Notes under the pieces: generated by a model
Databases searched by the model: none
The model's input: the letters and a program-made list of their open reading frames with translations, nothing else
What the model was told of the DNA's origin: nothing
Position numbers and translations under genes: made by a program
Part shown: positions 7,410-56,900 of the stretch, in pieces
Layout of the letters: every line of letters starts with the position of its first letter
Numbering within the stretch: the stretch's first letter is position 1
DNA from: Owenia fusiformis
Lineage: Eukaryota; Annelida; Polychaeta; Sabellida; Oweniidae
Direction: 5' to 3'
Assembly: GCA_903813345.2 (NCBI GenBank)
Contig: CAIIXF020000002.1
Span: 4,070,001 to 4,134,000, forward strand
DNA: 64,000 nt

Positions 7410-8894
7410 TCCTCTATTTCTATATTGCAACAATATTAAAGCCATTGGGATTTACGAATGACCTACTACCAAAGCAGGTAAAAATGTTAGTCGATGTTTT
7501 CAAAAATATGTGTGAATGTTCATCAAATTAAGTTTTCCCATTTTGAGCATCTTGCTACTTAAATTTTCAACAACTTCTATATATTTGATCAAATATTTCA
7601 ATTCTTACTCAGAAAGTAAAATTAGGATTATAAAAAAAATTGACATCTTTTTTTATTAAAATGGAATTCTACTACAAATAGACTTGTTTACAAAAGTGTT
7701 TCATTGTAATTGCTTTGATGTTCTGGGTTTCTATAAACAACCTTTCGTGTTAAATAGACTATTTAATTTTTGCTTTATAAACATTTTAATAACACCCCAT
7801 TGAGGGATAACACTTATATCCAATCATAAAATTACAACTGGCGATTACAATATAATAGGTGATCTTTATTTGAAGTTCATCTACTTCAAAAATGTATCCC
7901 CTCAAATTGAAAGATCTGATTCAGGTTTGTAATATTGACAAAATGTTTACATAAACAAAATATGAAAACTATGCCTTAGACTACAATAAGTAGGAATGTG
8001 TTTACAGACAGATTTAAATAAATATTGTCCCACCATGAAAGAAATTATGCTCCCCCAGGGGCTATGGAGCCCATTCAATATGACCTTTACTAGAACGATT
8101 GAGTGCAAACTCGTGAGGGAGAGCTAAAATTAGGTCACTTATATGATTGACTAAAGAGACAAGAAACTAGAACAAAATTTAGGTACACAGGCAAACATAT
8201 CCTAAAAATTGGTCTTGAACATGTTTCTTTCAAAAATTATAATATATGCGAGAATTAGGTTATTTTTCATAAATGATCAATTTAACATATTAGGTAATCT
8301 AAAATTAGAAGCAAAAAAAGATACTAAATATTTTATCAATGACTCAAGTCTTAGTCAGTAGCTTGACTTGACACATTTAACACTAAATAACACAGCATTA
8401 CAATAACTATTCAAAACTTACATGACGTATTCAATTTTGACAGGCGGTACTTTAAATAAAGTGAATGATGCAAACAGAAGATAAATGATTCAGATCGTAA
8501 TTTTTCTTAAATTATTGTTCAAAATAAGATGTTTATTTGAACTAAGTTGGTTCAAAAATCTTGTTTTAGAAATGTAGGGCGACCTGATTTTTATTTCATT
8601 GAATATAATCTTTTTGGTTTATTTAAATTATATAGTATAAATTTACTGAAGAATAATGTGTAATATAACAACACTAATTTGATTTGTAAGTTTTACATGT
8701 ACATGCATTGAACATTTTATATTATTTCTTTTCAAATAATCATACTAATTTAGTTTAAATATTTCTGTACTTACAGATTGTTATGCTACGTGATATTTAA
8801 TAGGATGACATCAATTGAATCATACAACACAATTAGCCGTATCTATAACCAAACTTAGCATCGATATGCAACAAACTTCCTGATCACTGACACC
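7410..8894. other. Region upstream of the 909-codon ORF
   Basis: No exon is seen. A good splice-acceptor-like sequence, TTTCTGTACTTACAG, ends at 8776, about 118 bases before the ATG of the next gene, so the 5' UTR may be spliced. No matching upstream non-coding exon could be fixed. Confidence 0.4.
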
Positions 8895-30100: not shown

Positions 30101-32933
30101 TTAATTTGGTATTTTGTCAATAGTCATTTTTTGCAAAAAGACCCTTGATAAAAAAAATTTCATCCAATGTCATTTATATCAATAGGCTCTTTTCTTCACA
30201 TTCTTTGATCATTGGATGAAAATCTAGACTGGTATTAACCTAAATTGGTGACTAGTGACCATATTACCAAATTATCATATTTCTACATCTTTTCTGTTCT
30301 ATTTCTTTTTACTTCTGAACTGTCTGAAAGGACTCTAAGATTAGTGTAGGACCTGTCATATAGATTTCTAAATCAAAATATATGGCAATTATCGTCAAAT
30401 TTATGCAAAATAAAATAATCAAAGCAAAATAAGGCCAGTTAAAACAAGGTTAAATTTTTGCATGAAAAAATATTCTGCACCAGGTTTGTAATTAGCATGG
30501 ACAATTAGGACCTTTACCATAAAATAATTCATTACATCAGCACTTCTCACTGTTTTACCTGTTTATCACATTTGTGTTACATTTTGACTCAATTCAAAAT
30601 CTCCATGAACAAAAGAATCTTACACAAAAATCAATTCATTGGCTCCGCACCATCTTGAATCCATTACTTATTGCATAAAATTACAACTGGTGTTTATAAT
30701 ACATGCACAACACATTTACACCATACATTTTGCAATCACTGTATCATAAATGCATTCTATGCACAATAGCTGTACATTGAATACTTCAACTCCAGAGTAC
30801 AGGGAGGCACTGTGTCGTCCATATAGGTAATTGGACGGTCAATACAGGCCTTCCTTTGTCCAACAATTACCTACATTGATGACATTGCCTCCCTGTCCTG
30901 TAACAAAAAGTAGAAATGTTTGGCCCCATGATTATACCAAAATTGTTATGATTATATAAACATGAAGCTGAAATGTTTGGTCTTTAATTTATACCATAAA
31001 TTGACCTACTGACTACTTACAGTACAAATAGAGTTAATTGCATATTAAAGCAAATTAAAGCTATAATTAGAATAAATAAAACTAGGTTAATATAAATGGC
31101 GCTGACTAGCAGCAAATATACCTTTAAAAATCAATATTTATAAAATTTCATTGAAAATCATCATACATTCATACAATATTTACAGAGGGCCCAAGACCAA
31201 CCGAGAACCTGGCACAAATGGAACAAGTCAAAGAAAAACTAGAAGAGGTTCAAAATGATGAAAAGACTGACATTGATGATAATATAATAGAGAAACAGAA
31301 TCAATCAGAGGAGAAAGGTAAGCAGCAATATCTTCTATATTTCATAAGGATTTTAGAAGTACTGGCCAACACATTAACTACAGACCTGTTCTGAACCATT
31401 GCCAACTGGCCAAGATGACAACCAACTACTCTGAAGCAGTGTTTGAGTACTTTGGATTGTGACAGATTTTGCTAAAAAATTGCCAGTTCTGCTTGACCAA
31501 AGCTTAAAAATTAATTATTATGAGATAATATGGACATATAATTCAAATATACACTGTAATTCAGATATAATATTTTTATCATCTTAGTGATATGAGTCAG
31601 GAATAGGCAGTGATATACAAATAGTAGAAATAATAGTGATCAATGAAAATATTTTCCATTTAAGTGCCCATACCAGAAATCATCATAGACAATGCTACTG
31701 TAGCATCAACAAATGAAAAGCCCTCAGAGAAACATGTCAGAATAGAGGCCCCTGGTGATGACACTAAACGAAGAAGGTCTAGTGTTACCGATGCCAAAAA
31801 TCTTTCCAAGGTACTGTAACAGCATCTTAGTACAATTAAACTATGATTCTTTTAAGTGAAGGGTAAAAGATAGATGTCTGAATATTGTTTGATCTCTTGA
31901 GTTGTTTTGACTAAATATAAAAAGATCTATATGTTTCTTTTGTAACAATAAATGGTTTAAGAGAATTGCATGGATAACATACAATGGTTAAAACACTATT
32001 ATCTTTATATTAAATTGGTAAATGCTTGCATCACAAAATATAAAGGGGACTACCATACTGAGAATATGCCAACTGTTCTTTTTGATTATTTTATTTATTA
32101 GGTTATCACCTCTGATCTCAAAGAGGTCCCGGAAATTGATCAAAGTGGAATAAAAATGAAAATTGACACTGATACTGGACAGATGATGATTGAGCCTAGA
32201 GTGGGGGAGGACTTTACTTTTACTGATACACCCTCCCCTCCTGGCACACCTCAGGTTGATCAAGAACAGGTTGGTGATAAATTCATTGTTTTTCGAGTTT
32301 GATGAAACGGTAGTAAATTGACATAAATTATAATGTATATAATAGTAAAACCTTTCTTAATGAGCACTTCTCTCTAGTGAACACCTGTGTTTAGTGAACA
32401 CTTCTTCAAGGCACATTTTACATTGACTCCTGTATAAATCCCCTCCCTGTAGTGAACTACACTCTACCTCCAGTGAACACTTTTTGTGGCTCTATAGGTG
32501 TTCACACGTGTGTTACTTCATTTTGTTTTTGTTTAATTAATTGCTTGCTTTATTGGTTTTATCTTGATGGAAATTGATTATATTCAAATGACCATAATAC
32601 ACTCTATGCATTAATTAATATAAATAAAACATTGTTCTCTACGTTTATACTGTAAAGGTTAGTCTAAAATCTGAGGAGAATTGAAATCAAAAGACTTGGT
32701 TTGTCAGTTTAATTTTGATGAAAATAACTTTTAATGCGAAATTTATTTCAGGCGCTGCATGACCTCCATCAACCAAAACATGTGACTTATGAAGATATAG
32801 TTAGTATACAAGCCAAAACAGCAGCATTATTTGACAGACCTAAGTTTAAAGTGACAGCCACTGGAAAAATCGCAAAGCCATTTGTACATGAGAATGTAGC
32901 CTCTTTTCTGTCGGCATGGAAACCAACTAGAAA
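21168..32933 (+). CDS. Exons 1-14 of the large plus-strand gene
   Basis: Exons: 21168-21349, 22631-22721, 23491-23620, 24037-24173, 24820-25022, a possible 17-base micro-exon 25174-25190, 25995-26143, 26721-26865, 27218-27329, 28912-28991, 29819-29857, 31186-31317, 31665-31810, 32102-32269 and 32752-32933. Each junction has AG/GT borders and matching phase. Exon 1 uses a weak donor (GTTTGAGT), chosen because it restores the frame into exon 2. The micro-exon is inferred only because exon 5 ends in phase 2 while the exon at 25995 needs phase 1. Residues include an acidic helix TENLAQMEQVKEKLEEVQND, an RRRSS basic/Ser cluster and a Pro-rich TDTPSPPGTP. Exons at 24037 and 26721 run into tandem repeats, so their true 3' ends could differ. 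Confidence 0.75.
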
Positions 32934-35900
32934 GTGAGTACCTTTTAGCTTACATGTATACACAATGCAATGCAATCACCTTCTTGTCTTTCCATCAGTT
33001 CATCTGTCTGTCTATCTCTCTGTCAACACATTGGTGACGCATTTGATTTAGTTATTGAAAATGTATTAAATTCCTGCACACAATTTTTGTCCCATTTTTT
33101 AGGGCTCTTTGTGATGAATTCTCTATTTTTCTAGAATTTGGCAAAAAATCATCCTCCGATCACAGGGCTTCAAAATCCAGAATATATTCTTTTTACCCCC
33201 TGCGATAAGCAGTTAGCAGTTCCCCGATTAAGAACTCGCAATCTTATTGGCTGTCGCAACACTGCGACAGAAATCATGTATATGTCATTGCGCATAATTA
33301 GACTAGATCTAGATCACGTGATTCAGTTTCATCAGGCGCTTCCAAATTGTTTATAGCAGAGGAAAGAAGGAGGTACGGATTCTGGATACTAGGAGGATGG
33401 CAAAAAATACAAGTTCAAAATTAGTCAGCTATAATTTAGTGTTTCATGGATTGGTTTTCTTGATTGAAATTCCTTGTTATCCCATCGAACGAAGTTCGGA
33501 GGGATATAGGGAACGCCTCCGTCCGTCCGTCCGTCCGTCCGTCCGTCCGTCCGTCCGTCCGTCCGTCCGTCCGTCTGGGCAATAACTCAAATACCGTTGG
33601 CCCGTTTTTATTCATATTTTGTACACATATACCCTATGGGGGTAGAAGTTCTGCTCGAAAGCCGATTTTCAAAATGGCCGCTCATTTAAAAATGGCGGCC
33701 ATTTTAGTGCCGATTTTACAGTAATTTAGGTGCAATATGTAAAAGTGTAATAGCAATATGTTTTAAATGTAAAAAAAATTATATAGGACATTAATAAAGC
33801 TAGAAATGTAGATATTAAAAAAGCACATGGCAGCCATCTTGAAAAATGGCGGCCTTTACTCGTTATTTTACGATTTTTGCTGTAACTCGAAAAGTAGTGG
33901 AGCGATTTCGTTCATATTTGGTATGTGAATACTATAAGCATGGCACACTGTCTAATGAAACTTTTGGTAGAAGGCGGCCATTTTGAAAAATGGTGGACAT
34001 TTTGAAAAATGGACGCCATTTTAACTTATTTTACTAAAACTCGAAAAGTAGTGGAGCGATTTTGTTCATATTTGGTATGTGAATACGTATAAGCATGGCA
34101 CACTGTCTAATGACACTTTTGGTAGAGGGCGGTCATTTTTCAAAATGGCCGCCATTTTAATGTATTTTACTATAACTCAAAAAGTAGTGGAGCGATTTTG
34201 TTCATATTCGGTATGTGAATACTGTAAGCATGGCACACTGTCTAATGACACTTTTGGTAGAAGGCAGCCATTTTGAAAAATGGCGGACATTTTGAAAAAT
34301 GGCTGCCATTTTAACTTATTTTACTATAACTCGAAAAGTAGTGGAGCGATTTTGTTCATATTTGGTACGTGAATACGTATAAGCATGGTACACTGTCTAA
34401 TGACACTTTTGGTAGAAGGTGGCCATTTTTCAAAATGGCTGCCATTTTAACGTATTTTACTATAACTCGAAAAGTAGTTGAGCGATTTTGTTCATATTTG
34501 GTATATGAATACTATAAGCATGGCACACTGTCTAATGAGACTTTTGGTAGAAGGTGGCCATTTTTCAAAATGGCCACCATTTTAATGTATTTTACTATAA
34601 CTCGAAAAGTAGTAGAGCGATTTTGTTCATATTTGGTATGTGAATATTATAAGCATGGCACACTGTCTAATGACACTTTTGGTAGAAGGTGCCCCTTTTG
34701 AAAAATGTTCGATGGGATTCGCTACGCTTTGGCGTTGCCGTTGTTCTGGTTGGATCATTGTGACATTCCCTGCATTTTCCCTAATGGTCCACCAATACTG
34801 TACACCATATAGACAGTATATACATAAACTTAAACAATATTATCTAATTACTTAATAATAATTTATTACAGAAATAACATATTTATCATAACAGTATCAC
34901 AAAACATATGTTCTGAAATTGAATGAACAATTCATCCAACAATGATATAACATATACCTTACGCATGATGCCCTGTTGATACAGTGGCCTGAGCCTTATA
35001 ATAAATAACTTCTAAATTCTATGTCTTGCACCAAGACCCTTGTGTTACCCTCCCTCTTGTAACACATTTATGCTATAGGTAAACAAATGGGTAATAAAAA
35101 GGGAGGAGACCAGATGCTTCATTAAAAAATATGAGCAAATTAACATGTAATATTTTACATTCAGAAACAGCACTTAGATTCTCTAAAAATATCTGACTGT
35201 GATAATGACATACATCTATCAATATGCTCTTTTTATGAAAATGAATAGGTAACACTTTAACTTTTAATATATATAACAAGTGTAAGTGTTTAACACGTGT
35301 TTTGTTTGAAACATCTGACCATTAGAACATCTGTTTCAGAAACATGATTCATGTCACTTATGTGAATCTATGGTTATGGTATAACTCTCAATATGCTCTT
35401 CTTTTATTCCATATTTTTTAACAATATATGTGTGCTCATTAAATTGCAAGACATATATCAATCAACATTTTAAAGATAGCAAAAATGACCTTACATAATT
35501 TGAATGAAAATCTACATTCATAATCTACTAACATTTTAATCTTTACATGATTGGATAAATAATTAGCTAATCCTATGTTTATTTGCCATGAGGATAATCT
35601 ACTTTTATAGAGACATGCATGTACTGTATATGAATAAATTCATTAAACATGTATAATGAACATAAAGTATTTTGAGCAGTTCAATATTGTGTAAATGTTT
35701 AACAAAAATAGATATAACTCTCATATAATAACATAATAATATGTAAAATTTAAATATGAAACTACAAGATAATTTGCACAGAATTATTTACATTTGTAAG
35801 ATTTCATGTACATTGTCTTACTGCTTAACTTTACAGTCATGTAGTAGCACTTATGAGATTTTGTAGGAATATTTACAATGTACTTGGTTTAAAATTCACA

Positions 35901-38900
35901 TTTAAGATTGAGATTCATATGGAAATCACTGCTTAAACGATGCCTTGAAGAATTGAATGTATAATTATTATGTCACATGTGTTCCTGTATCCTCAATCAT
36001 CCACATGTTCATCCAAAATGATGTCACTTTCAGCAACAATAATGTCACACAAGTTGCACTTTCATTCTCAAGAACAGCATCCATTTCACCCTCAACAACA
36101 GAATCACTCATTCTCAACAATAATGTTCCTTCCACCATCAACAGCAGTATAACTGTCTCCCCCAAACCAATATATCATTCACCCTCAACTACAATACAAC
36201 ACTCATCCTTAAAAAATTGTTTTTAACTTCATAATGTATTACTTTCACCCATTTAAAAAACACTTTTTCTTTAACTCATACGTTTTTGCTCCCTAAAAGA
36301 CAATTAAAAGAGTGTCACTTTTACCATTAACAGCATTAATCTTTTATTCCAGGTCAACTTGGGATTTTTATGTAACTCACTTAACTCAATCAATAGATAT
36401 AACTCATTCTCATTTGTGATTTTAGAGTTCTCTTGGATATTGCTAGCTATTGAGTAGTGTTTATGGACACCACACATGTGATTGCTTAAGTACTTCAATA
36501 TTCTGATTAATGACGTCTTCATTGTTGTTTTGCTTAGACAGTTCTTCCAGACTGTCTAATAAGGGGAATGCGTAAGTTTTCTTTATGGCCTTGTCTTTGT
36601 CTTCGTAGTAGAAGTAAACCATGCCTACTGCAATTAGTTTATCCCTATGTCGTGCAACAACAATAGATCCACTATCTCCTGGTTTTGAAAAAAAATTTCC
36701 ATCATTACCTTCTATTTCAATAGCTCCCAAAAACTTTGTACTTGTCATATTTCCCGATTCATCAGGGTATTTGATATTACCATTAAAATCAAAATCAGTT
36801 ATTTTTCCTTTTGTATGATCTGAAACTTGGCCAGTTTTCTCTACTTCGATAATACCTAAGTTTTCTAACATGATTTTGCTAATCATCCAATCACATTGTC
36901 TGTCGAAGTCTTCAAGCTGCATAGTTTCTACCTTAGAAATCAGAGCAATGTCGAATCTGACCTCACTACTTACATGATTTATTCCAATACTTGCCTTAAG
37001 TTTGCCTAGTTCTTCATATTTTTTATCAGATGGATGGAAAATATATATGGCTTCTTCATGATTGCTTTTCTCAATAACATGTTTACAAGTGAGAGCATAT
37101 TTATCTTGATTAGTTTCAAGAATGCCTCCTATGTTACCCTGCATTATTTCTGGTTCAGGGCCTAACCCATATGTTTTTTTTTTCCCAAGATGTAGTATAA
37201 TCGGTTCTTCCTCAGCTTTTTCAAAATTGAATAAATGTTTAGGAAGTTTCTCTTTTAGTTCTGATTCTCTGAGCTCATTTGTATAATGTATTGTGTATCT
37301 CTTTGCATTCGGTTTTAAACCAAAGCTTTTAACTCCTTCAAAATCTAGCAACATGATTTTTTCTTCTAATGCCAAAGTACACATCTCCCTTCCGGTATTA
37401 ACCACACATGGACAAGCATATTGATCCCCCACTTCTTTATCTTGTTCTATTTTCTTAGCTTTGACTTGATCACCAGCATTCTCTTTAAACACTCTTACAC
37501 AATCTTCTAATTCCCATTTGTGAGCAATCATCAGAGCAGTTTCTCCATCATTTGCTTGTTTGTTTACATCAGCCCCACATTTAACTAATTCCTTCACACA
37601 TTCTACTCTATCATTCATGACAGCAATAATTAATGCAGTTTTTCCATCATTCTTTGGCATGTCAACCTCAGCACCAAATTTCACTAATTCTGTCACACAT
37701 TTTACTCTGCCATTACTTGCAGCAATCATCAATGCTGCCTCACCATCATGATTCTTCCTGTTCACTTCAGCACCACATTTAACTAATTCCCTCACATTTT
37801 TAACCCTTCCATTCCTAGCAGCAATCATCAATGCAGTCTCTCCATCATTCTTTTCCATATTGACATAAGCACCATATTCAGTTAATTCCCTTAAACATTT
37901 TACCCTACTATTCCTGGCAGCAATCATTAAAGCACTCCATCCATCTGGTTTCTGAATATTGGTTTTAGCCCCATGTCTCAGTAACTCTCTCAAACATTCT
38001 AATTTACTCCAACTTGAAGCAATCATCAATGCATCCTCTCCATCATTCCTCTTGACATTTACATTGGCATCAAACATTAATAATTCCCGCACAAATTCTA
38101 CTCTTCCATTTCTTGCAGTAACCATCAAAGGAGTCTCCCCATCATTTTTCTGTAAGTTTATATCTACACCATCTTTAACTAGTTTTTTCACGCACTTTAC
38201 ATCACCATTCATTGCAGCATACATTAAAGAATTCCAATGATCTTCTGCTAGGAACCAACCATCTTTTACATTCTTCATGTCATCAAAGTCACTACAATCA
38301 CTCTCACCTATCACATTTTCATACTGTTGCCAGGGAAATGCTATAGAATCATCTGAGTCTGAGCCAGCATTATCAGAGTCACTAACAAGATTTTCCTTCA
38401 ACTTGTCACTCTTAACATATTTACTCTCAACATTCTTATCATTCTTTACCTTTGTACTCTCATCATCTGCTTCACCAATAACACTATTTGCCTCATCATT
38501 TGACTTTTTGGCATCTTTACCAATATGGCTACCCTGAATATCAACATCACTCTCATAGCTATCTTCATCATCACCATCATATCCCTCTATACCATTACTA
38601 TCATCATCTGTATTATCATCCTTATTGTCAATGTCTTCATTCTCATCATATAGAAATAGAGATTTTGCTGCATCAATTGTATGCAAACAGTCCATACTAC
38701 TAACATACACCTTCAGTATTCTAGGTATTTTAAGATGTCTCATATCATCTATGCTCTTTACAAGTGATCTTGCTGCAAGTGCTGAATACTTATGTAACAA
38801 TGTTGCTTTCATGCTTACACTTGTTTTTTCACATTCCATGCGCAAAAAACTGGAGGTTGGCTTAGATCTAATTATTCTGCTCATTAAATTTTGAGTACAT

Positions 38901-41900
38901 TTGCTACACTCATATATTAAAATCAGATTATATAGGATGACCTTTTCAGATGGTAAAAAGCATTCAAGGCTTGTCATGAATCTTTCTCTTAGATCTTCAT
39001 TCATCTTGCATAGGTCAAAATTTGCACCATAGGTAAGAAGGTATTCATAAATAATGCAAGTCTGACTAAACCGACTACGCTCAATTTTAGTAAGAAATAT
39101 TGCTGTTTTGCCATTTTTGTCTTTAGCTTTAATATTTGCCCCAGCTTGTAGTAGTGTTAGGCAGCATGTATCACAGCTTGACATACATGCATACATAAGG
39201 GCTGTTGTACCATCACTATCACAAACATTGACATCTGCATTACATTTCAGTAAAGTCTTGACACACTCGCACTGGTTATACCAACATGCATACATCAAAG
39301 CTGTCTTCCCAGTTTTATCAATTGTATTCACTTTCTCACCCAGCTCTATCATTTTCTCTATGATTTCACAATATGGTTGTTTTGAAAACTCCATCAAAAG
39401 TGAAGTATTATCCTCTTCCTGTTTTAAATTGTTTCTAATTTTCCCCCATTTTTGCCTCTTTGATTCATGATATTCATTCTCACACTTCTGAAATGAAGCC
39501 TGCCATGCCTCATTACTTGTTATATTAACCTTTGCATTGTTTTCTAGTAAAGCATCGATACATCTGCAGTTATATTGTGAAACTGCTATTGTTAGTGCTG
39601 TCTGGTCTTTACTTACAACATTCACACCAGCCTGTGCTTCAATCAATACCTGTATACAGTCATTTAGTTCCTTAACACTTAGTAATGTCAGTGTTAATGC
39701 AGTATATCCATCATTGTTCTGTATATTCATATCAGCACCACATTCTACTAATACTCTCACACATTCTACATTATCATCGTTAGCAGCAGCCATTAAAGCA
39801 GTCAGTCCATCTTTCTCCTGTATGTTCACATTAGCACCATTATTCACTAGTATTCTCACACATTCAACATTATAATCATAAAAATCATTCTGAAAAACAA
39901 GCATTAAAGCAGTGCATCCATGATTCTCCTGTATGTTCACATCAGCACCACCTTCTACTAATACTCTCATACATTCTACATAAGCATTTTTAGCAGCAAC
40001 CATTAAAGCAGTCAGTCCATCTTTCTCCTGTATGTTCACATTAGCACCACTATTCACTAGTACTCTCACACATTCAAGATAATAATCCTCACCCTCATAA
40101 TAATTCTGTAAAACAAGCATTAAAGCAGTGCATCCATGATTCTCCTGTATGTTCAAATCAGCACCACCTTCTATTAATACTCTCATACATTTTACAAGAT
40201 CATTCTCAGCAGCAATCATTAAAGCAGTGCATCCATTTTTCTTCTGTAAGTTCACATCAGTACCATATTCTACTAATACTCTCACACATTCAACATAATG
40301 ATCATCATATTCATCATATTTATAATAATCATTCTGAAAACCAAGCATTAAAGCAGTGTATCCATGATTCTCCTGTATGTTCGTATCAGCACCACCTTCT
40401 ACTAATACTCTCACACATTCTACACAATCACCCCTAACAGCACGCATTAAAGCAGTCCATCCAGCATTCCCCTGTAAGTTCACATCAGCACCACTTTCTA
40501 CTAATACTCTCACACATTCTACATGACCATTATAAGCAGCATACATTAAAGCAGTCCCTCCATCTTTCTTCTGTGTGTTCACATCAGCACCACCTTCTAC
40601 TAATACTCTCACACATTCTACATGATCATACCTACATATAGCAGCAAGCATTAAAGCAGTCCATTCATTTTTCTCCTGTATGTTCACATCAGCACCATGT
40701 TCTACTAATACTTTCATACATTCTACATTATCATTCCTAGCAGCAAGCATCAAAGCAGTCCATCCATTTTCCTTCTGTATGTTCACACCAGCACCACCTT
40801 CTACTAATACTCTCACACATTCTACATTACCTTTCCTAGCAGCAAGCATCAAAGCAATCCATCCATGTTTCTCCTGTATGTTTATATCAGCACCACCTTC
40901 TACTAATACTCTCACACATTCTACATTACCTTTCCTAGCAGCAAGCATTAAAGCAGTGCATCCATCTTTCTTCTGTATGTTCACATCAGCACCACATTCT
41001 ACTAATACTCTCACACATTCTACATGATCATTCAAAGCAGCAAGCATTAAAGCAGTGCATCCATCTTTCTTCTGCATGTTCACACCAGCACCACATTCTA
41101 CTAATTCTCCCACACATTCTACATTATCATTATGAGCAGCAAGTATTAAAGAATGCAATCCACTATAACTCTGCATGTTCACATCAGTACCACATTCTAC
41201 TAATAATTTCACACATTTAAATTTACCTCTCCAGGCAGCATACATTAAAGCAGTGGCCTCATTTATGGAATAAAACCAGGTAATTTTATATTCACTTTCA
41301 TACAAACAGTCTTTAATACCCGGAGAATGTTTAAGGAAAATCTGTAATATCTCACAGTAATTGTCATCTATCGTTTTGAAGACACAGTCTTTTCCATTCT
41401 GGCTACTGAAGTCTATGGAAGGCTCTGCTGTAAGATATGCTGCTATATATGCTGCATGGTTCATACCCATGTGGAAGAGAATCACCTTGAAATGATCCAC
41501 ATTGTCTATAATGAATGAAAATTATGTTGTTTTATATTTAACCAAAGGCAAAGGCCGATAGGAATAATTTTTAAATAAAGATGGCATGGTAATCGATCTG
41601 TGTTTATTTATAAATATTCTCTTAAAAGATAATACTGGATTCTGTTGGTGCTGCCATCTTTATATCCTCCCAGAACCTATGTATTTCAGTGGGTTCAATG
41701 TTTTTGATTTTTATCCCATCGAACGAAATTCGGAGGGATATAGGGAACGCCTCCGTCCGTCCGTCCATCCGTACGTACGTCCGTTCGTCCGTCCGTATGT
41801 ACGTACGTCCATCCGTCCGTCCGTCCAAGGCAATAACTCAAATACCGTTGGCTCGATTTTGTTCATATTTTGTACACATATACCCTATGGGGGTAGAAGT

Positions 41901-44900
41901 TCTGCTCGAAAGCTGATTTTCAAAATGGCCGCTCATTTCAAAATGGCGGCCATTTTAGTGCCGATTTTACAGTAATTTAGGTGTAATATGTAAAACTGTA
42001 ATAGCAATATGTTTTAAATGTAAAAAAATTATAAAGGACATTAATAATGCTACAAATGTAGATATTAAAGAAGCACATGGCAGCCATCTTGAAAAATGGC
42101 GGCCTTTACTCGTCATTTTACGATTTTTGCTATAACTCAAAAAATAGTGGAGCAATTTTGTTCATATTTGGTATGTGAATACTATAAGCATTGCACACTG
42201 TCTAAAAACACTTTTGGTAGAAGGTGGCCATTTTGAAAAATGGCCGCCATTTTAACATATTTTACTATAACTCAAAAAGTAGTGGAGCGATTTTGTTTAT
42301 ATTTGGTATGTGAACACTATAAGCATGGCACACTGTCCTATGACACTTTTGGTAGAAGGCGGCCATTTTGAAAAAAAAATTGGAAAATGGCCGCCATTTT
42401 AACGTATTTTACTATAACTCGAAAAGTAGTGGAGCGATTTTGTTCATATTTGGTATGTGAATACTATAAGCATGGCACACTGTCCTATGACAGTTTTGGT
42501 AGAAGGCGGCCATTTTGAAATTTTTTTGAAAAATGGCCGCCGATTTTAACGTATTTTACTATAACTCGAAAAGTAGTGGAGTGATTTTGTTAATATTTGG
42601 TATGTGAATACTATAAGCATGGCACACTGTCTATTTCTAATGACACTTTGGTAGACGGTGGCCATTTTGAAAAATGGCCGCCATTTTAACGTATTTTACT
42701 AGAACTCGAAAAGTAGTGGAGTGATTTTGTTCATATTTGATATGTGAATACTTTAAGCATGGCACATTGTCTAATAAAACTTTGGGGAGTAGTCGGCCAT
42801 TTTGAAAAATCGCCACCATTTTTATGTGTGTAATTTTACAAGTACGTGTGCGATTTTTCAAAATTTTTAGACGTGGCTACTTAAAAGCATATTATTCCTT
42901 CTGATGACAACTTGGCTAGTGAGCAACCATTTTGAAAATGGTGGCCTTTCTGGTGTGTTGTTTTATGATATTTGCTATTCGTTTGTAAAAATGCCAGCCA
43001 TTTCTGTTCGATGGGATTCGCTACGCTTTGGCGTTGCCGTTGTTCTGGTTTATCATTAGGGAGCATTTCAAAATTTGTTCCCAGTGCACTTCCAGTATGA
43101 AAAAAAAGTAAAACAAAAGTAAAATTATTCAAAAAATGAGCAGCTATTCATTTGTTTTATTCATTTCATTAATTCACAAGTCACAATAAACTTAACTTTT
43201 CCAGTATTAAACCTACTGCTGATAATGTACAGAAATACATTAAGTAGTTATAGAAATGACTATATTACACATCATGTTAACATAGTGAGACTTTAAAAAC
43301 AATGCATATCAACATTTCTCAAACACAGTTATGAGGGGGAGGGAGGGGGGGGGGTCACATATTAACTGTGCAAATACAGTTAATAATCTTACATTGAACT
43401 TTTGAGATGCCCCCTTAGTATGGAGCTAGGTACAGAAAATTGACTTTAATTTATGATATGATATACCACATTAACTTACAGGCTTAAAGTATATTAACAA
43501 AAAGAACCAGCACATACAATGGAAGTCAAACATGCTTCAGCGAGAAATTCATCGAAAGCTTATTCAAATTTATATTGACCAAATTTTTCAATCCTTGCCT
43601 GACATTTAGAGAAAATGTGTGAAAATAAACTAAAAGAATATTATTATATAAATGTGATGATGTGATATTTGATCTGGATATACATGATAGCAATACTATA
43701 TATGCTGTAAAATTTATTTAGTCTGTCATCACTCATTCTACTCAACCTACCTAAATATATAAAGACAAATTGAAATCTACATGTAAGTAATGAAGGACAT
43801 GAAGTTAAGGTTTCATAAATTTGTTTATAAAATTCGTTGGAAATATTTTCTAGTTACCATATTTTGAAATTAAAGGGGTATGAATTTCTTTTCATAATGG
43901 AGCAAATAGTAATCCTGAATTCTTAGCTTTTCCCCAAAGTTTTTGAGCTTTCCTCAATTTTAATTCATTTACTTGCCTGTATTGGGCATCTTTGGCTTCT
44001 GCAGCTTTTGTGCTTTTTTCTTTTTTCTATAGTATGGACCTATATGAATTAAAGCAGTGTGAAACTTTAATGCAATATGACTTAGGAGTACTAAGTGTCA
44101 TCACAAAACTCTCACAGTGTCCCTTTCAATCTGTTGAATATGCATGTGCTTAAAATATAAGATGATGATTTTATATTGTAAATTATATTGATATATTACA
44201 ACATCAATGATTTACATAAGTTACATATTTTATATACAGATGATGGGGTACATTCTACAAATTGATCTCTAGATTAGAATGTTTACTTTGTTTTACCATA
44301 TCGTACTTACGAACGATTCTTGGTGATAGAGTTATATCCACAGTGTGTGAGCCATCCCCTGGGTCCATTGAACTAGTATCTTGCAAAGTTGATTTCTCTG
44401 TAGGATCTGCCAGGCTGGAATCTGGTGCGTTTATCACCTCAACAGAGGCAGCTTGAATTATATCATCCTGACTCAAAATCACAGGACTGACATCTGGAAA
44501 TTCTGGAACGAATTTAATTTGTTTTAAACATTTGTTTCATAATTCCTTTTACTAATACAAATCTTGTATGAGCCTTCATTGATTCAGAATTAAAATCTCA
44601 AGTTGAACACAAGTGTATATTAATAGAGGGTTCTTGATGTTATCTGAAATATTTTGGAATACATTAATCTTTAAAATATCAATATGCTGCAACTTAATAT
44701 CTCATGCTAATATTCGGATTCTCCGGAATTGAATAAAGTCAAAAAATTAATATCAGAGCCAACTGATATACCTATATTGCTTATACATGTATAATGACAA
44801 ATGAGTGCTATAGTCTATTGACTTTTCAACCATTAATATTAGTGTAGATGACTGGGCCACTGACAAATCTCAGAATAAAAATGAAGGCCAAGACGTACAT

Positions 44901-47900
44901 CAATGCACCTAGCTTTTCATAAAAACATTGATTGATAATGTTAAAGACATTTGATTTCTTCGATTGGTCATAAGAAGTAGATTCTTCTTTTGCATCCTGG
45001 CAAAATCCAAATCATGCAAGGGTGCAAGGAAAACAAACACAAACTCAAGAAAAAACACAAGCTTGTTTGCTGAGAAATAAATACATTTTATGGGCATGAA
45101 AAGGGAAGACATACCAATTTGCAGTGATTACAAACACATATCTATACATATTATACAATATATTTAAACATTTTTGTTAGAAATGGAAATTTTGAAAAAT
45201 TAAAAAGTGAACATTTTAATAAAATCTTTTGAGAAAAATATTTTTCGAAAAAATGAACATTTTTGACAACAATGAATTGTTATTGTTTGTATTTTTCAAA
45301 AAAAGAAAGTGTTTCTGAAAAAGTAAAAATTTGGGGAGAGCCATGTGAATACTAATCAAGGTGAATACAATTTTTGTTGAGAGATTGTGTCAGTATCAAT
45401 TATATTTACTGTAAAAAGAATACATATTATATTAAATACTATGTTCTTATTGTCAGGAATATGATATATCATAGCTATGTGTGAATTAATATAGTTGTAC
45501 TTGCCTTCTTTTGACCTCTTTGATGAACCTATTTCAGTTTCATCCCCATCATGCTTTCTTTTGGCATTACTCAGGGTGTGGAGTGGACCTGTTGAAACAG
45601 AATGCTCCTGTATATCTAAAAACCTGACTAATCTGAAAACCTCCCAATCTGAATATATTTTCCCTACCATGATTTCCTCGCATTGAAACCTACTGGTATG
45701 TTAAAGAAATCTTGAAATGTGAACAATTCAAACACTTTCTTAAATGACTTACAGATTAATTTAAATCCTATTCCTATCTTAGTTATGGGAATATTCTGTG
45801 GGGCAATGCAACAAAAAATCATTTGAACAGACTTTTTATTTTACAAAAGAAATTCCTTAGGATAATGACAGACACTCCAAGAACTGCTCCTTCGAATCCT
45901 ATCTTCAGAAAATTCAAAATATTAAATATTTTTGACATAAATAAATTTCAGATTGCTACATTTCAAGAGAGAATTGATATACATTCCCATGATACAAGAA
46001 ATATAATTTGGTAATAATGAGATTTAGAACTTAAACTGGTCGTAAATCAATTGCAGTCAGTGGAGCAACACTTAATAATTCTTTATCAATACATTTTAAA
46101 AAGGCAAACTATATAAAACAGTTCGAAAAAATGATCAAAGGTGATCTTATTAATCAATACCAGTGATACTTTGTGCTTCCATCTGTTCTTTTCTAATTAA
46201 ATTCAAATTGCTTCTGATTTTTGATTTAATATATTTAATTGAATTGAAGATTATTTAAATGCCTAAAGCTATGTTGCCAAATCCAGAATCCTGTGCTTGC
46301 AAAAACCTTGGATTGTGAACTCCTCCCGCCACTCCCAATAGTGTTTTGATTAGACAGATTTTACTGTATATATTGAATATATGACTACAGAGTTGACCAC
46401 AATTGGAACAAAATCTAAATATATATCTCCATTGTAATATGGTTTACATCGTTTCCTTATATGTATATTCTATATAGTTTGATAAGAAGTGAATGCATAA
46501 TAACTCTCAATTCTTATTATGAATTCCCTCCAGATAAGAATATTAACCAGATTTTTTATTTTACCAGATTGCACTTACGGACGATTCTTGGTGACATAGT
46601 GCTTGAACCCTCTCCTGGATCAATAGGACTAGTATCTTGTATAGTTGAATCCTCACCAGGATCTTCTAGGCTGGAATCCTGTCCCTTCAAAGCCTGTCTT
46701 GAGGCAACTGGTATTATATTGCTCTGACCCAAGATCAGAGGATCTATATCAAGAAAACCTGGAACTTATGAATATTGTGTTAATCTTTCTTTTCATGGTC
46801 TTTTTGAATACATGGATTTAGAATTGAAACCTAGGTTAAGACACTGCTGACAATAAGGAATCCTCATAATGGTTGATGAATTGAGAATTGCCACCATTTT
46901 ATGAGTATGTAATTCCAGATTTATAGGTGAATGCCATTTGGACATAGAATATGGTGTAACCTCAGGTCATAAGTGAAATTGTTTGCAAAAAGGAACAATA
47001 CTTTTGCTTGGTATGTCCAAAATGATGATTTGTACATAAAGGGATTTGATCTTGTTGGGTGGGATTTGCTACTTTTTTGTAGTTTAAATAGTATCAATAT
47101 CATCTGAGTGATTTTCAAAGAATTAGAGCAACTTGGTGCTTCAGGCTTTTGAAATTATATGAATTCTGCCAAAAAATGATGTATGGACATATTTTAATCT
47201 AAAAAGGTCAAATTATGATTAAGCTCCCTGTTGAGAAAGATCACTATATGTTATGGTCTGCTACTGTATTATGTGGATATAACTTCCTACCTTTTTCTGG
47301 ATGAGGTATATCTTTCAAGCTTGGGCCTTCCTGTTGATGCAAAGAGCTGTCACCTTGTGTATCCAAGGTTTCAATTGGGTATACAGGCCCTCCATATGCA
47401 TCTTGCGTTCTTTGGGACTCTCCTAGAATAAAGAGAAAACATTCTAGCAATTGTATATTGAACCTAAAACGTGACAGAAATATTAGCCCATAAAATGATG
47501 TAAACTCAGTGCAAAAATGTTTATCTTGTCAATTCATCAATGTTCATCACAGTGATATATTTTTAGCTCACATGGTGAGCTTTTGCAATCACTCACTTGT
47601 CCATCTGTATGTCCGTCCGTCTGTCCATCCGTCCGTCCGTCAACAATAGTGGCACGTTTTAAAACCTCTGTCGATAGGATTCCTGTTTTAAGTTATTTCT
47701 GTTCAACATCAATACAGAAAACCCCCCTATGACTCCTGGTTCAAAAGCTCGCCTATTTTCAAAATGGCCGTCACTTTTGTCTCGCGAAATTCACTTTTAG
47801 CCCATTTCCTAGCTAACCTCTGTCGATAGGATTCCTGTTTTAAGTTATTTCTGTTCAACATCAATACAGAAAACCCCCCTATGACTCCTGGTTCAAAAGC

Positions 47901-50900
47901 TCGCCTATTTTCAAAATGGCCGTCACTTTTGTCTCGCGAAATTCACTTTTGGCCCATTTCCTAGCTTTACAAATAATTTCAGGTGTCCTACATGGTAAAA
48001 ATCCATGTCAATGTAAAGATTAGATATATGAAATAATTTTGTTACAAAAAATCAGCGAAAAATTGTATCCATTTTTTTATTTTCAGCCATTTTAGTTAAC
48101 ATTGATTTGTCTATCTGACTCGCGAAATCCACTTTCTGTCAATAACAGTGGCACATTTTAAAACCTCTGTCGATAGGATTCCTGCTTTAAGTTATTTCTG
48201 TTCAACATGAATTCAGAAAACTCCCCTATGACTCCTGGTTCAAAAGCTCGCCTATTTCAAAATGGCCACCATTTTTGTCTCGCGAAATTCACTTTTGACC
48301 CATTTCCTAGCTTTACAAATAATTTCAAGTGTCCTACATTGTAGAAATCCATTGCAAAGTAAAGAATAGATGTATGAAATAATTTTGTTACGAAAAATCA
48401 GCGAAAAATTATATCCATTTATTTATTTTCAGCCATTTTAGTTAACATTTTTTGTCCATCTGTCTCGCAAAATTCACTTTTGGACCATTTACCTTAAACC
48501 CTCTGTCGATAGGATTCCCATTTTAAGTTATTTTTGTTCAACATCAATACAAAAAACTCTCCTATGACTCTTGGTTCAAAAGCTTGGCTATTTTCAAAAT
48601 GGCCGTCACTTTTGTCTCGCGAAATTCACTTTTGGCCCATTTCCTAGCTAACCTCTGTCGATAGGATTCCTGTTTTAAGTTATTTCTGTTCAACATCAAT
48701 ACAGAAAACCCCCCTATGACTCCTGGTTCAAAAGCTCGCCTATTTTCAAAATGGCCGTCACTTTTGTCTCGCGAAATTCACTTTTGGCCCATTTCCTAGC
48801 TTTACAAATAATTTCAGGTGTCCTACATGGTAAAAATCCATGTCAATGTAAAGATTAGATATATGAAATAATTTTGTTACAAAAAATCAGCGAAAAATTG
48901 TATCCATTTTTTTATTTTCAGCCATTTTAGTTAACATTGATTTGTCTATCTGACTCGCGAAATCCACTTTCTGTCAATAACAGTGGCACATTTTAAAACC
49001 TCTGTCGATAGGATTCCTGCTTTAAGTTATTTCTGTTCAACATGAATTCAGAAAACTCCCCTATGACTCCTGGTTCAAAAGCTCGCCTATTTCAAAATGG
49101 CCGCCATTTTTGTCTCGCGAAATTCACTTTTGACCCATTTCCTAGCTTTACAAATAATTTCAAGTGTCCTACATTGTAGAAATCCATTGCAAAGTAAAGA
49201 ATAGATGTATGAAATAATTTTGTTACGAAAAATCAGCGAAAAATTATATCCATTTATTTATTTTCAGCCATTTTAGTTAACATTTTTTGTCCATCTGTCT
49301 CGCAAAATTCACTTTTGGACCATTTACCTTAAACCCTCTGTCGATAGGATTCCCATTTTAAGTTATTTTTGTTCAACATCAATACAAAAAACTCTCCTAT
49401 GACTCTTGGTTCAAAAGCTTGGCTATTTTCAAAATGGCCGTCACTTTTGTCTCGCGAAATTCACTTTTGGCCCATTTCCTAGCTTTACAAATAATTTCAG
49501 GTGTCCTACATGGTAAAAATCCATGTCAATGTAAAGATTAGATATATGAAATAATTTTGTTACAAAAAATCAGCGAAAAATTGTATCCATTTTTTTATTT
49601 TCAGCCATTTTAGTTAACATTGATTTGTCTATCTGACTCGCGAAATCCACTTTCTGTCAATAACAGTGGCACGTTTTAAAACCTCTGTCGATAGGGATTC
49701 CTGCTTTAAGTTATTTCTGTTCAACATGAATTCAGAAAACTCCCCTATGACTCCTGGTTCAAAAGCTCGCCTATTTTCAAAATGGCCGCCATTTTTGTCT
49801 CGCGGAATTCACTTTTGACCCATTTCCTAGCTTTACAAATAATTTCAAGTGTCCTACATTGTAGAAATCCATTGCAAAGTAAAGAGTAGATGTATGAAAT
49901 AATTTTGTTACGAAAAATCAGCGAAAAATTATATCCATTTATTTATTTTCAGCCATTTTAGTTAACATTTTTTGTCCATCTGTCTCGCAAAATTCACTTT
50001 TGGACCATTTACCTTAAACCCTCTGTCGATAGGATTCCCATTTTAAGTTATTTTTGTTCAACATCAATACAAAAAACTCTCCTATGACTCTTGGTTCAAA
50101 AGCTTGGCTATTTTCAAAATGGCCGTCACTTTTGTCTCGCGAAATTCACTTTTGACCCATTTCCTAGCTTTACAAATAATTTCAGGTGTCCTACATTGTA
50201 AAAATCCATGTCAATGTAAAGGGTAGATATATGAAATAATTTTGTTACAAAAAATCAGCGATGGTAAAAATCCATGTCAATGTAAAGATTAGATATATGA
50301 AATAATTTTGTTACAAAAAATCAGAGAAAAATTGTATCCATTTTTTATTTTCAGCCATTTTAGTTAACATTGATTTGTCTATCTGACTCGCGAAATCCAC
50401 TTTCTGTCAATAACAGTGGCACGTTTTAAAACCTCTGTTGATAGGATTCCTGTTTTAAGTTATTTCTGTTCAACATGAATTCAGAAAACTCCCCTATGAC
50501 TCCTGGTTCAAAAGCTCACCTATTTTCAAAATGGCCGCCATTTTTGTCTCGCGAAATTCACTTTTGACCCATTTCCTAGCTTTACAAATAATTTCAAGTG
50601 TCCTACATTGTAGAAATCCATTGCGAATTAAAGAGTAGATGTATGAAATAATTTTGTTACGAAAAATCAGCGAAAAATTATATCCATTTATTTATTTTCA
50701 GCCATTTTAGTTAACATTGATTTGTCCATCTGTCTCGCAAAATTCACTTTTGGACCATTTACCTTAAACCCTCTGTCGATAGGATTCCCATTTTAAGTTA
50801 TTTTTGTTCAACATCAATACAAAAAACTCTCCTATGACTCTTGGTTCAAAAGCTAGGCTATTTTCAAAATGGCTGTCACTTTTGTCTCGCGAAATTCACT

Positions 50901-53900
50901 TTTGACCCATTTCCTAGCTTTACAAATAATTTCAGGTGTCCTACATTGTAAAAATCCATGTCAATGTAAAGGGTAGATATATGAAATAATTTTGTTACAA
51001 AAAATCAGGGAAAAATTGTATCCATTTTTTATTTTCAGCCATTTTAGTTAACATTGATTTGTCTATCTGACTCGCGAAATCCACTTTCTGTGGCACGTTT
51101 TAAAACCTCTGTCGATAGGATTCCTGTTTTAAGTTATTTCTGTTCAACATCAATTCAGAAAACTCCCCTATGACTCCTGGTTCAAAAGCTTGCCTGATTT
51201 CAAAACGGTCGCCATTTTTGTCTCGCAAAATTCAATTTTGGCCCATTTCCTAGCTTTACAAATAATTTCAGGTGTCTTGCATTGCAAAAAGCCATGTCAC
51301 TGTAAAGAGTAGTTGTATGAAATAATTTTGTTACAAATTATTGGCAAAAAATTATATCCGTTTTTTTTCAGCCATTTTAATTGACTGAGAGACAGATGGC
51401 TTGAAATAATTTTGTAACAAAAAATCAGCAAAAAATGATATCCGTTTTTTTCTGTTACCATGTGAGCCCAGTACCGACGGTACTAATTTTATGTAAATCC
51501 ATAGTTATATTAAATAAGTTCATAGTATGGTAATATTAATTTCATTTGTTAGTGTTCATTGTCACAGACTGTATCACATTTTTTGTTTTAGATGTTTCGG
51601 TTGCAAGCTGCATCCATGATCACTACATTTAAATTAAAAAATTAAATTTTAATTCCCCATCATTGTACAAACAATATGTAGATGATGTACTAGACATTGA
51701 TGAATTGACAAATCATATAAATTCTATAGACATTGTCAAGTTTACAGTAGAAACAGAATCAGAGGGAAGACTGGCTTTCTTAGACACGCAACTTAACATG
51801 AATTTGGATGGTCCGATAAGATGTACTGTATATAGAAAACTTGCCACACAGACCAGTATTTAAACTTTCAATCACACCATCCTCTTGAACACAAATGTCA
51901 GTAATTTCTACGTTAATAGGAAGAGCAGATTTGATTTGCAGTAAACAGAAGGACAAAGTAGAAGAAACCTCAAATGTTAAAATAGTATAAGAAAGATGCG
52001 GTTATCCAAAATGGACTATTAAAAAGACACAGGAACCTTTGGAAAGTAAAGCAGATACAAATAAGGACAAGACAGAGATAAAAAAGGTAGTAACCATATC
52101 CTATGTGAAAAATGTATCGGAACTAATTAGAAGAATAATGAAGAAAAAAGATATCAAAGTAGCTTTTAAACCTATGAAAACACTTAAATGTTTTCGTTCA
52201 TCCTAAAGATAAAGTCAAACAGGATCGCAAAACCAATGTGGTATATCAAGTTCCATGCAACAATTGTAACAAAAGTTACATAGGAGAAGCAAGTAGATCT
52301 CCTTACACTCATATCAAGGAACACAAGACCGAAGAAGATAAGAAAATGAATAGCTACACTAGAAACAATAAAAAAGCATCATTTAATTGCTTTAATAAAT
52401 CAGCGATTACTGATCATATTCTCCAAGAAAACCACCAAATTGATTGGGACAATTATAAAATAGTTAGCAGAGAAAGGAACAGAAACAATAGGTTGATGAG
52501 AAGCCATTCACATAAGAAAACATAAAACTTCAATAGAGACATGGGCAGCACTTCAATTTAGACCACTGTGGGATGAAGTTATATCGCCATAGCAATTAAT
52601 TATTTTTTGACGTTGTTAAGGTTCAATGACATGATAAGTAGATTTACCTGTATTTTTTAACTGTTTCAAATTAAATTTAGTGATCATGGATGCAGCTTGC
52701 ATCCGAAACATCTAAAATAAAAAATGTAATACAGTCTTTGACAATGAACACTAATAAACGAAATCCATAGTTAATTTATAAATTGTACTTACTAGCTTCA
52801 AGAGGTACATGGCCAGAGTCTTTAAGAGCTTCATTGGATATATCTGAAGCATCTTTGGGACCAACTGACTCAGGATCTTGAATTTTAGATCTTGTCCCAT
52901 GCTCAATTAATTTTTCCTGATCCATTTCAACCCTTTTTTTAAATCTCCTTATGATGTATTTCACAGTGGCTTTTACTCTCCTTCCTTATTGCGAGACTAT
53001 GGGTGTGGCTGCGTTATTGTTTGCGCATGTCCACATTTTAATAGTGACGTGATATCCAAAGTCTAAGTTAATTCAAGATCCAACTGGTTTTTAAGTTATT
53101 TGTACAGGCACTAAAATAGTGTTCATATTGGGAGTTATGACTCTATTGTTTGTAGTTTTTATGATAGACCAGTTCATAGCTTTATTTCTAATCCAAAACA
53201 TGTTCTATGTTCTAAATAAGTGGTTGCAACTTGCTCTCTGTGTCTAATGACAATTATATGAATGTGTCGATACAACTTTCTTTGGGTTATGAGATTCTTT
53301 TTTGCTTGATATAATAATGGGTTTTGCATTATACCATGTTCACTTAGATTGGTTTGCCAACTTATATCTATTCCATTGTAGATGAGGAATATCTGCCTCT
53401 TCTGTATGACTATAAAGGAAATCCAACTTCCCAGTATGTACCATGTCTATGTATTTGTCACACTTTGCATAATATTATTATTTCAGATATGAGTTACATG
53501 AGAAGAAAGTAGGCCCAGATTTGGAGAGGAATATTCATCATTTCTGTATGACCAATGAGGATATCCAACTCCCAAAGGAACTACGAGGGACCATGAGGCG
53601 TAATTTGGTGGCAGGGAGATACCAGAACATGAATGAACAACCAGAAGAGGTGTGTTAATGATTTGTTTTTTAGGATAAGTGTTAAAAAGAGGAGAAAAGA
53701 TCAAAGAGCCGGTCAGTAGATTGGAAATATACATTTTGTGCCTTGATTGCTCAAAAGTTCAGGTTGTCTTGTTCTAAAAGTTTTTTGAATGTTAGTAGAA
53801 AAGTTAGGTCTACTTCCATTGGTTACCAAAGGTGTTCCATTACCTTACAGATATCAGATCCCCCCCCCCCTATATATTCATTTCTTCACTACCCCATCAA

Positions 53901-56900
53901 ATGAAGTTCAGAGGGATATAAGGAATGCCTCTGTCCGTACGTCTGTCTGGGTGATAACTCAAATACAGTTGAATCGATTTTGTTTTAATGGGCCCTATGG
54001 GGATAGAAGTTCTGCTTGGAAGCCAATTTTCAAAATGGTCACTCGTTTAAAAATGGCAGCCATATTTTAGTGCCAATTTAACAGTAATTTAGGAAGCTGT
54101 GATAGCAGTATATGTTAAATTTTAAAGATTATATAGGACATTAATGAAGCTAGAAATGTAGATAATTAAGAAGCACATGGCAGCCATCTTGAAAAATGGG
54201 ATTTTGTTCATATTTGGCATGTGTATAATATAAGCATGGCAAACTGTCTAATGACACTTTGGGTAGAAGTAGAAAAATGGCCGACATTTTTACGTGTGCT
54301 ATTTTACATTTTTAAAATTACTCAAAAAATAGTGGAGCAATTTTGTTCATATTTGATATGTGAATACTACAAGCATGACACACTGTCTAATGCCACTTTT
54401 GGGTTAATAACTCAAAAAGTAGTTGAGTGATTTTGTTCATATATGATATGTGAATACTCATAAGCCTTACACACTGTCTAATGACACTTTGGGTAATGGG
54501 TGACCATTTTAAAAAGTGGCCGTCATTTTTACTTTTTTTTACTGTAAATCAAAAAGTAATAGAACCATTTTCAGGGCTGTCAACTTGGGAACACTTAACA
54601 TGAGTGATTTACAAATGTTGAACACCTTTCTTTAAATTGCGGTTCAAATCTGAACAACTTGGTTCAAGTTTTGAACAGCTTAACCTCAAATTTTTCCCAA
54701 CAAAGGGGGAGGTAGTGTGGCAATGATTGAAGCAAATGCTTGACATAGGAAGAAATTTTGAACCAAATGCGTGACATTTATGGGGTTTGCGTAAAAAGTC
54801 TGAAAGGAATGCATTCTCTTTTTTGGGTTCGTTTTTTTGCTTTATTCGCGATGAATTTTATGTAAAGATTTTTTTAAAGTCTATCAACATAATGCGTGAT
54901 TTGCGTGATATTATATCATACACGCAAAATTAATGTGTGATTTATATTTTTCCAGCAAATGTGTGACCATCACGCCTAATGCGTGAGGGTTGACAGGCAG
55001 TATTTGATATGTGAATACTCAGAGGCATGGCACACTGTCTTATGACATTTTGGCTAGTAGGAGCCCATTTTGAAAAATGGCTGTCATTTACATGTACATG
55101 TGTGCGATTTTGTTGAAATTTTATATGTGCCTACTTAGAAGCAAATTACACTTTCTGATGACAATTTGGCTAGTGAGTAACCATTTTGAAAATGGTGGCC
55201 ATTTTTATCCACATTTTATGATTTTTGCTTATACTTCGTTCGTAAAAATGCCAACCATGGCTGTTCGATTGAATTTGCTACGCTTTGGCGTTGCTGTTGT
55301 CTAGTTGTCTATGATATTGAAAATTATTTGACAACAATATAGTCACAATCCAAACAGTTTTCTAACATTTTCATGATCACTTCACTTACCATAAATACTT
55401 CAGCAGAATCCTTTTTACTCCACTCCATGTCACATTTTAATTGCACATGCCATCTCAAACTGATTTATCAAAATTTTCAAATTCCAGTAACATAAAGAGT
55501 ATAGTGTAACCCTCTTAACTCTCATTTTGAAATGTTTCTTTATATGTTATGGTGACTTCAACACAAGCCCTCGCCCCTTGTTCAAGTTTATTTTATTGCA
55601 ACTTCAAATACTGTCAAACTGTATAGGTACTAATACAAAATGTATGCACTCTATATGACTTAGTGATTTCTATGACTTTCTATATGACTTAGTGATTCAG
55701 AAGAGAAATTTTTTAGAACTTTACACTTGTATATAGTACACTTCTTAAAGTTGTGTGCCTTTCCTAGTATTACTATATCACTACTATAGTGAGCCTTGAT
55801 GTTTGTGGAATGATGACAGTCTGGTTTCACATCAACAACCCCCACCTCTCCTACTAGACTCAACACATCAGATGCTTTGGCTGAACAGGAGGAAAAGAGA
55901 TCCCATCAGCCTTATATAGATATATATGATTGTTTGTAGAATGATGACATTGTTTGGTTTCACCCAACAACCCCCACCTCTCCTACTAGACTCAACACAG
56001 CAGATGCTTTGGTTGAACAGGAGGAAGAGAGATCCCATCAGAGACAGCGAATGTCTGCAGCTGCCAAACGAATCCTTGATAATGCAAAGATGGAAGCACC
56101 CTCTGGTGGCCAAGGAGATGATGAAACGCTTGAGGCGTGGCAGGCAAGAGCTCAACAATTGGTATTATACTTCTTTTCAACTATTGAATAATGAATATAG
56201 ATAATTTATTAGGTAATAGATCAATGATGTGATGGACTTTTATCTGTTTAAGTTAGCAATATGTTAAAAATGTCATAGCTATGATTTTTGATAATTTTGT
56301 TGTTGTTTTTACGCATATAAATACACATGATAAATGAGAGGTAAATCTCACTTACCTTCAGAATGTACCCCTTAGGCTATGTAGCATATCGTAAACTAAT
56401 TATGCTTTGAAGGAACCTTAAAATACACACAAAATTTATTCTAGTTTGATGCACCAGACATTAGCATTGAGGGAGAAAAGATGGATGTTAAGTGGGATGA
56501 GTCGAGGATGTACTGGAACCCTGCTCCTCCTAAAATGGACATTGCCCCAGCCAGAGTAAAGGATCATCTGTTCAGGTATAGTTTATGATATTCAATCATA
56601 GGGGATGGTGATCAGGTATATGACATTAATTATTCATATGATTAGACAAAAATACTGTTCCAAATATAGCATTTTTACTTGCAGTATTGTATGTTGTAGG
56701 CACAAATCTCAATTTATATACATTTTGTAAGATGTATGAATACATTAATGAGATAAAGATAACATTCATTTTAAGAGGGCAGCACCTTACATGAAATAGG
56801 GAACAAGAGAAACATTACATTTTTTGTACATTTTTTGAATTTAAAAGTGAGAAACAAAATAGATGGCATTATGTATTGAATAAACATAGTTTGTTTATTG

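Follow-up and report, generated by a model that had tools for sequence, protein, structure and literature searches.

A probable antisense ankyrin-peptidase gene within a 20.5-kb intron of a TPR-repeat gene of Owenia fusiformis

Nesting of one gene in an intron of another, on the opposite strand, is common in animals. In the part of PMC8467205 available, most nested pairs are reported to be located on opposite strands, and the internal genes are described as typically short and intronless. For one ctenophore, a survey of 1,058 genomes (PMC8527503) gives 1,654 hosts with 2,357 nested genes between them, and 12.24% of exonic bases, close to primates and some arthropods; a title in its reference list refers to Gart of Drosophila, paired with an opposite-strand cuticle gene. 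PMC3786989 describes 2mit as nested in timeless2 and puts nested genes at about 6% of the genes of Drosophila.

The locus analyzed here resembles these animal nested intronic genes (Gart/cuticle gene, 2mit/timeless2) in that a whole protein gene would occupy a single intron on the opposite strand. The window, that is, the whole stretch of 64,000 bases that was analyzed, lies at C2:4070001-4134000; the genome comprises 498,259,871 bases and 525 contigs. According to the gene models, both of them protein-coding and on opposite strands, the nested gene lies wholly inside one host intron. The plus strand would carry one gene in which TPR repeats come after a long N-terminal part of low complexity, and its 20.5-kb intron would hold a complete, separately coded minus-strand gene with its own start, stop and polyadenylation signal, predicted to encode an ankyrin-repeat protein of 1,937 residues that ends in a trypsin-like peptidase domain. 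Taken as a whole, this arrangement is considered likely. It differs from the typical internal genes outlined in the available part of PMC8467205, since the nested gene extends over 16.5 kb and contains six introns, and the case is unusual only in size and intron number. It adds one example to a common gene architecture, at the large, intron-rich end, and it would have more weight if related species allowed the union of gene and intron to be dated, or if the ankyrin-peptidase family proved to be a defence system.

The nested gene runs on the minus strand from 52925 to 36461 and comprises seven exons, one more than the six counted in the preliminary description of this DNA. As stated there, the exons join in frame, giving 5,814 nt and 1,937 codons with a single stop codon, at the end. 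The features of this gene are the following:

52793-52925, minus strand: exon 1, with the ATG start at 52925
47291-47422, minus strand: exon 2, placed by the splice and phase chain
46579-46743, minus strand: exon 3, which resembles exon 5 in part (82% over 51 bases)
45505-45588, minus strand: exon 4, with the GC donor gcaagt
44311-44502, minus strand: exon 5, placed by the splice and phase chain, part of which resembles exon 3
43977-44039, minus strand: exon 6, 63 bases, with the GC donor gcaagt that is also found in a relative on C4
36461-41505, minus strand: exon 7, with ankyrin block 1, an acidic linker, ankyrin block 2, the peptidase-like domain and the stop codon
36464-37420, minus strand: peptidase-like domain, 319 residues, with H114, D157 and S250 in GDSG
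36343-36348, minus strand: AATAAA signal shortly past the stop codon, starting at 36348

All six introns are in phase 1; the donor is GT in four of them and GC in the other two (after 45505 and after 43977, gcaagt in both). Exon 7 is included in a 1,686-codon open stretch. Ankyrin matches in the nested protein were above the Pfam cut-off (Ank 585.9 bits, Ank_2 639.8 bits), with matches down to E 4e-197, and the presence of two ankyrin blocks and a peptidase-like domain with conserved H, D and S agrees with the ankyrin-protease product proposed previously.

A small codon model, trained on 26,135 coding and 25,548 noncoding nucleotides and scored by leaving one out, gave the highest score to the used frame in six of the seven nested-gene exons. 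Exon 6 (44039-43977) was not best in its used frame (0.7 versus 3.0 and 3.1 bits), and it is supported instead by its counterpart in the C4 relative, which also begins with PYYRK and agrees with it in phase and in the GC donor gcaagt. This relative, located on another chromosome, is included in the 10 matches obtained with the nested N-terminal part as genome query, among them C4:1115379-1115597 (56%), C8:9743582 (35%) and C272:20736 (32%). It has the exon 6/7 split, in phase 1 and with the GC donor, as in the nested gene, and its large exon starts in the same phase. Residue agreement between both genes was 50% over 1,059 aligned codons. The NG86 method yielded dN 0.41 and dS 1.30 over these codons; for the last 400, which cover the non-repeat linker and adjacent sequence, dN was 0.32 and dS 2.39. 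In these values dS is near saturation, the ankyrin repeats are possibly misaligned between copies and the first 90 codons have no dS value. Constraint on the nested gene is clear despite the near-saturated dS, with differences from the C4 relative that are mainly silent. Because of the splice junction in common with this relative and the dN/dS constraint, the nested gene is, as judged from sequence, real and protein-coding, and not a retrocopy. A retrocopy origin was rejected on account of the six introns, one of which (exon 6/7, phase 1, GC donor) is common with the C4 relative, and the same intron upholds the previous statement that this is not a simple retrocopy.

It seems improbable that the minus-strand gene is a copy in decay or without transcription, a reading suggested by its location among repeats and by three relatives (L018, L019 and L020, all those fetched) that stop where the window protein continues after ...DGWFL; against it, the reading frame stays open for 1,937 codons and every exon has its splice sites, the dN/dS of the gene versus the C4 relative is well under 1 and the peptidase triad is kept. 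Beyond ...DGWFL, the window protein extends into the second ankyrin block and then the peptidase domain, and no peptidase match was located near L018, L019 or L020 among the 25 matches listed. The tail of this longer form may have been gained by the window copy or lost by the other copies. The second ankyrin block is closest to the first block of the window gene itself (46.9 and 48.2%), with 39% for an ankyrin-peptidase gene at C8:5.91 Mb. Fusion with a C8-like gene was considered as the source of the second block and not retained, since internal duplication or homogenisation explains it equally well and its best match is the own first block. A reverse-transcriptase-like open frame, named by eye, is found beside the C4 relative (L018:7948-9999, minus strand).

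The host chain has been followed on the plus strand from 25995 past 64000 and includes 20 exons joined without a stop codon. The host exons, the intron that holds the nested gene and the repeats of this intron are the following:

25995-26143, 26721-26865, 27218-27329, 28912-28991, 29819-29857, plus strand: host gene, left part, from GT/AG ends, phase and codon score
31186-31317, 31665-31810, 32102-32269, 32752-32933, plus strand: host gene, left part continued, from GT/AG ends, phase and codon score
32934-53486, plus strand: host intron, 20,553 bases
33470-34760, plus strand: repeat copy that contains a tandem array, left of the nested gene within the host intron, from sequence comparison
41708-43057, plus strand: second copy of this repeat, in intron 6 of the nested gene, 87% over most of its length and in the same orientation
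51640-52525, plus strand: broken retroelement-like fragments in intron 1 of the nested gene, with no Pfam match
53487-53649, 55940-56161, 56445-56575, 57245-57382, 57790-57938, 58163-58319, plus strand: host gene, right part, from the phase chain
58520-58604, 58992-59081, 63236-63290, 63559-63628, 63858-64000, plus strand: host gene, right part continued, from the phase chain

The other 17 listed host introns range from 200 to 4,154 bases. Exons at 23491-25030 are located near the left end and their join to 25995 is not settled, so this position is a provisional left end. The last exon of the window (63858-64000) runs on to base 64013 in the numbering of the neighbouring 10 kb (L001) and is followed by TPR exons; the host exons beyond the window showed TPR matches over the Pfam cut-off, and all 13 further host junctions checked into L001 fit in phase, some sites of the host chain having been chosen to fit. 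With the leave-one-out codon model, the used frame was top-scoring in 32 of 32 host exons. The host is single copy in the genome, each exon being found only here, except for one partial extra copy. When the 852-residue host part was compared with solved structures and with Pfam, one chance match was obtained in each (E 0.27 and 0.19). From its TPR layout, TTC6 was considered as the identity of the host; this candidate was discarded, as no search supported it.

Joining in phase of exon 32752-32933 to the exon at 53487, with completion of a Lys codon, had been proposed before and is confirmed by the splice sites: the donor AAA/gtgagt leaves two bases over and the acceptor ttcag/A completes AAA (Lys). 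The exon chains and codon scores also sustain the coherent, phase-checked coding exons described on both strands at this place. The proposal of an antisense gene in one host intron is therefore retained as far as the gene models fit, and is reduced to a likely one regarding the single host transcript, given that no homologue spans the junction. Neither PDB nor Pfam contained a protein or family spanning it, and no host copy, joined or spliced, was detected elsewhere in the genome, all 15 matches being at this place.

These results bear on a different arrangement, in which the plus strand would carry two genes side by side, the left one ending after 32933 and the right one starting before 53487, on either side of the antisense gene, with nothing nested. 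The lack of a spanning homologue is in its favour, as is the fact that phase agreement at the 32933/53487 junction alone is expected 1 in 3 times by chance; moreover, unspliced 32752-32933 reads AAG TGA through the donor and could in principle end there. The strong donor and the ttcag acceptor in the right phase argue against two genes, and so does the right exon, since no in-frame ATG lies between it and the nearest stop codon upstream. A search for plus-strand acceptors in the host intron able to open an in-phase end exon revealed 919, of which 254 (253 in a recount) had at least 20 codons. At 5 bits or more there were 34 phase-compatible candidates: 18 antisense to nested exons, 9 in the retroelement-like stretch and 7 unexplained. 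These seven, which would favour two genes, are weak, and three of them share one end; the best, with a pyrimidine-rich acceptor, reached 9.6 bits (44033-44153). Simulated noncoding sequence (30 runs, 14,741 bases) gave 2.8 candidates on average and a maximum of 6, with a best score of 13.6, so the seven are slightly above this control. An alternative end exon close to 32933 (33103-33208) fits in phase and was rejected with a score of -0.8 bits. Start-exon candidates with the right phase and a fair donor were 10, scoring 4.8 bits at most, and the best four are partly in a repeat copy. A short weak exon could be missed, because the scores of real host exons go down to 4.8 bits. The segment 53348-53437 was also considered as a decayed copy of the exon at 53487 and discarded, as this exon found no second copy. 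Overall, two separate plus-strand genes are judged unlikely, and the left and right plus-strand exons probably belong to one transcript, a continuity favoured by the phase fit, the absence of a convincing alternative exon and the chain that continues into the TPR exons.

With one host transcript as the preferred reading, the nested gene could have arrived by duplication at the DNA level, or the intron could have grown around it. When the two sides of the nested gene within the intron were compared for an insertion footprint, the longest among the matches listed had 12 exact bases or, allowing one mismatch, 15, which is chance-size, and the word insert used in the preliminary description is not borne out by these flanks. 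Misassembly, which would have put the ankyrin gene artificially inside another gene, is very hard to credit: there is no N in the window or in the next 10 kb, and the local repeats are short enough for long reads, if such reads were used. Regarding expression, the nested gene would be transcribed from its own promoter, and the pair would most likely behave as two independent transcription units, each spliced separately, with a pairing that has no function. Interference between nested and host transcription is a conjecture.

The peptidase domain matched 25 stretches in the genome (35 candidates scored), corresponding to about 21 places after merging neighbours. Sixteen loci (20 of the 24 other rows of matches) were fetched, and 13 of them were aligned with the window copy (n=14); L009, L011 and L014 were left out since they are split over two frames, with the H, D and S motifs visible in their pieces. 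T111, H114, D157 and G248-G251 are invariant in the 14 aligned copies, all of which present the H, D, S triad with GDSG. The 14-copy profile matched chains of rice NAL1 (NARROW LEAF 1, a plant trypsin-like peptidase) with E 1.5e-9, covering the GTLG...HV and KxGxxTGxTxG...GDSGS parts, and more weakly plasma kallikrein (E 8.5e-4) and factor Xa (E 0.0015). Pfam matches among the 14 members (E 0.1 or better) corresponded to Nal1_C (7 members, best E 8.7e-7), Trypsin_2 (5 members) and Peptidase_S64 (4 members). The likeness to NAL1 lies in this profile match and in the members with Nal1_C; in contrast to NAL1, the window copy is under the curated Nal1_C cut-off (16.5 versus 26.1 bits), is joined to ankyrin repeats and occurs in an animal. 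The trypsin/chymotrypsin (S1) peptidases share the H, D, S order with GDSG, a likeness in motif and profile; the single-sequence fold model had a pLDDT of 33.7, too low to show a double beta-barrel. These comparisons point to a peptidase family distantly like plant NAL1, a side result of some interest.

The pairing of ankyrin repeats with this peptidase is not unique to the window, because a 740-residue open frame at C8:5.91 Mb also contains ankyrin repeats running into the same peptidase domain. In that gene (L003, C8:5906500-5912500), the peptidase part is in two overlapping frames, which indicates an intron or a break. By analogy, the ankyrin blocks would probably bind a partner and the tail would cleave protein. 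A more speculative proposal, which we regard as doubtful, concerns an expanded family of intracellular trypsin-like peptidases in animals, distantly like plant NAL1, to which the nested gene would belong. Ankyrin repeats precede the peptidase in at least two members (the window copy and the one at C8:5.91 Mb), and this sensor-plus-protease layout could represent an undescribed immune or stress effector. In the window it would take a longer, possibly fused form on the strand opposite to a TPR gene, and the transcription of either gene could damp the other. Trypsin-like domains and ankyrins are described separately in conflict systems in the available part of PMC8195603. An immune role for their combination was not adopted from this source, whose available part does not describe this peptidase family.

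Other features were observed in the window and beside it. The segments 33470-34760, 41708-43057, 53930-55307 and 25211-25292 belong to a single repeat family, whose copies carry a TCCG run and, internally, a tandem array of ~140 bases. Intron 1 of the nested gene contains a long tandem array at 47598-51379, with units near 340 bases, and the fragments at 51640-52525, which by eye we take to be Penelope-like. A 921-codon open frame without Pfam match is located at 8859-11624 (plus strand), and a tandem array of 17-base units, with several frames open, at 677-1119. Partial copies of exons were also found in or beside the host gene: a partial copy (96%) at 55833-55909, upstream of exon 55940-56161; an array at 24037-24696, in which a likely exon (24037-24173) is followed by six more tandem copies, with 96-99% identity, of its final 77 bases and donor; and, as a third partial-exon array, a TPR-like exon that recurs, donor included, in 120-base units at L001:9230-10000, up to the end of the fetched piece.
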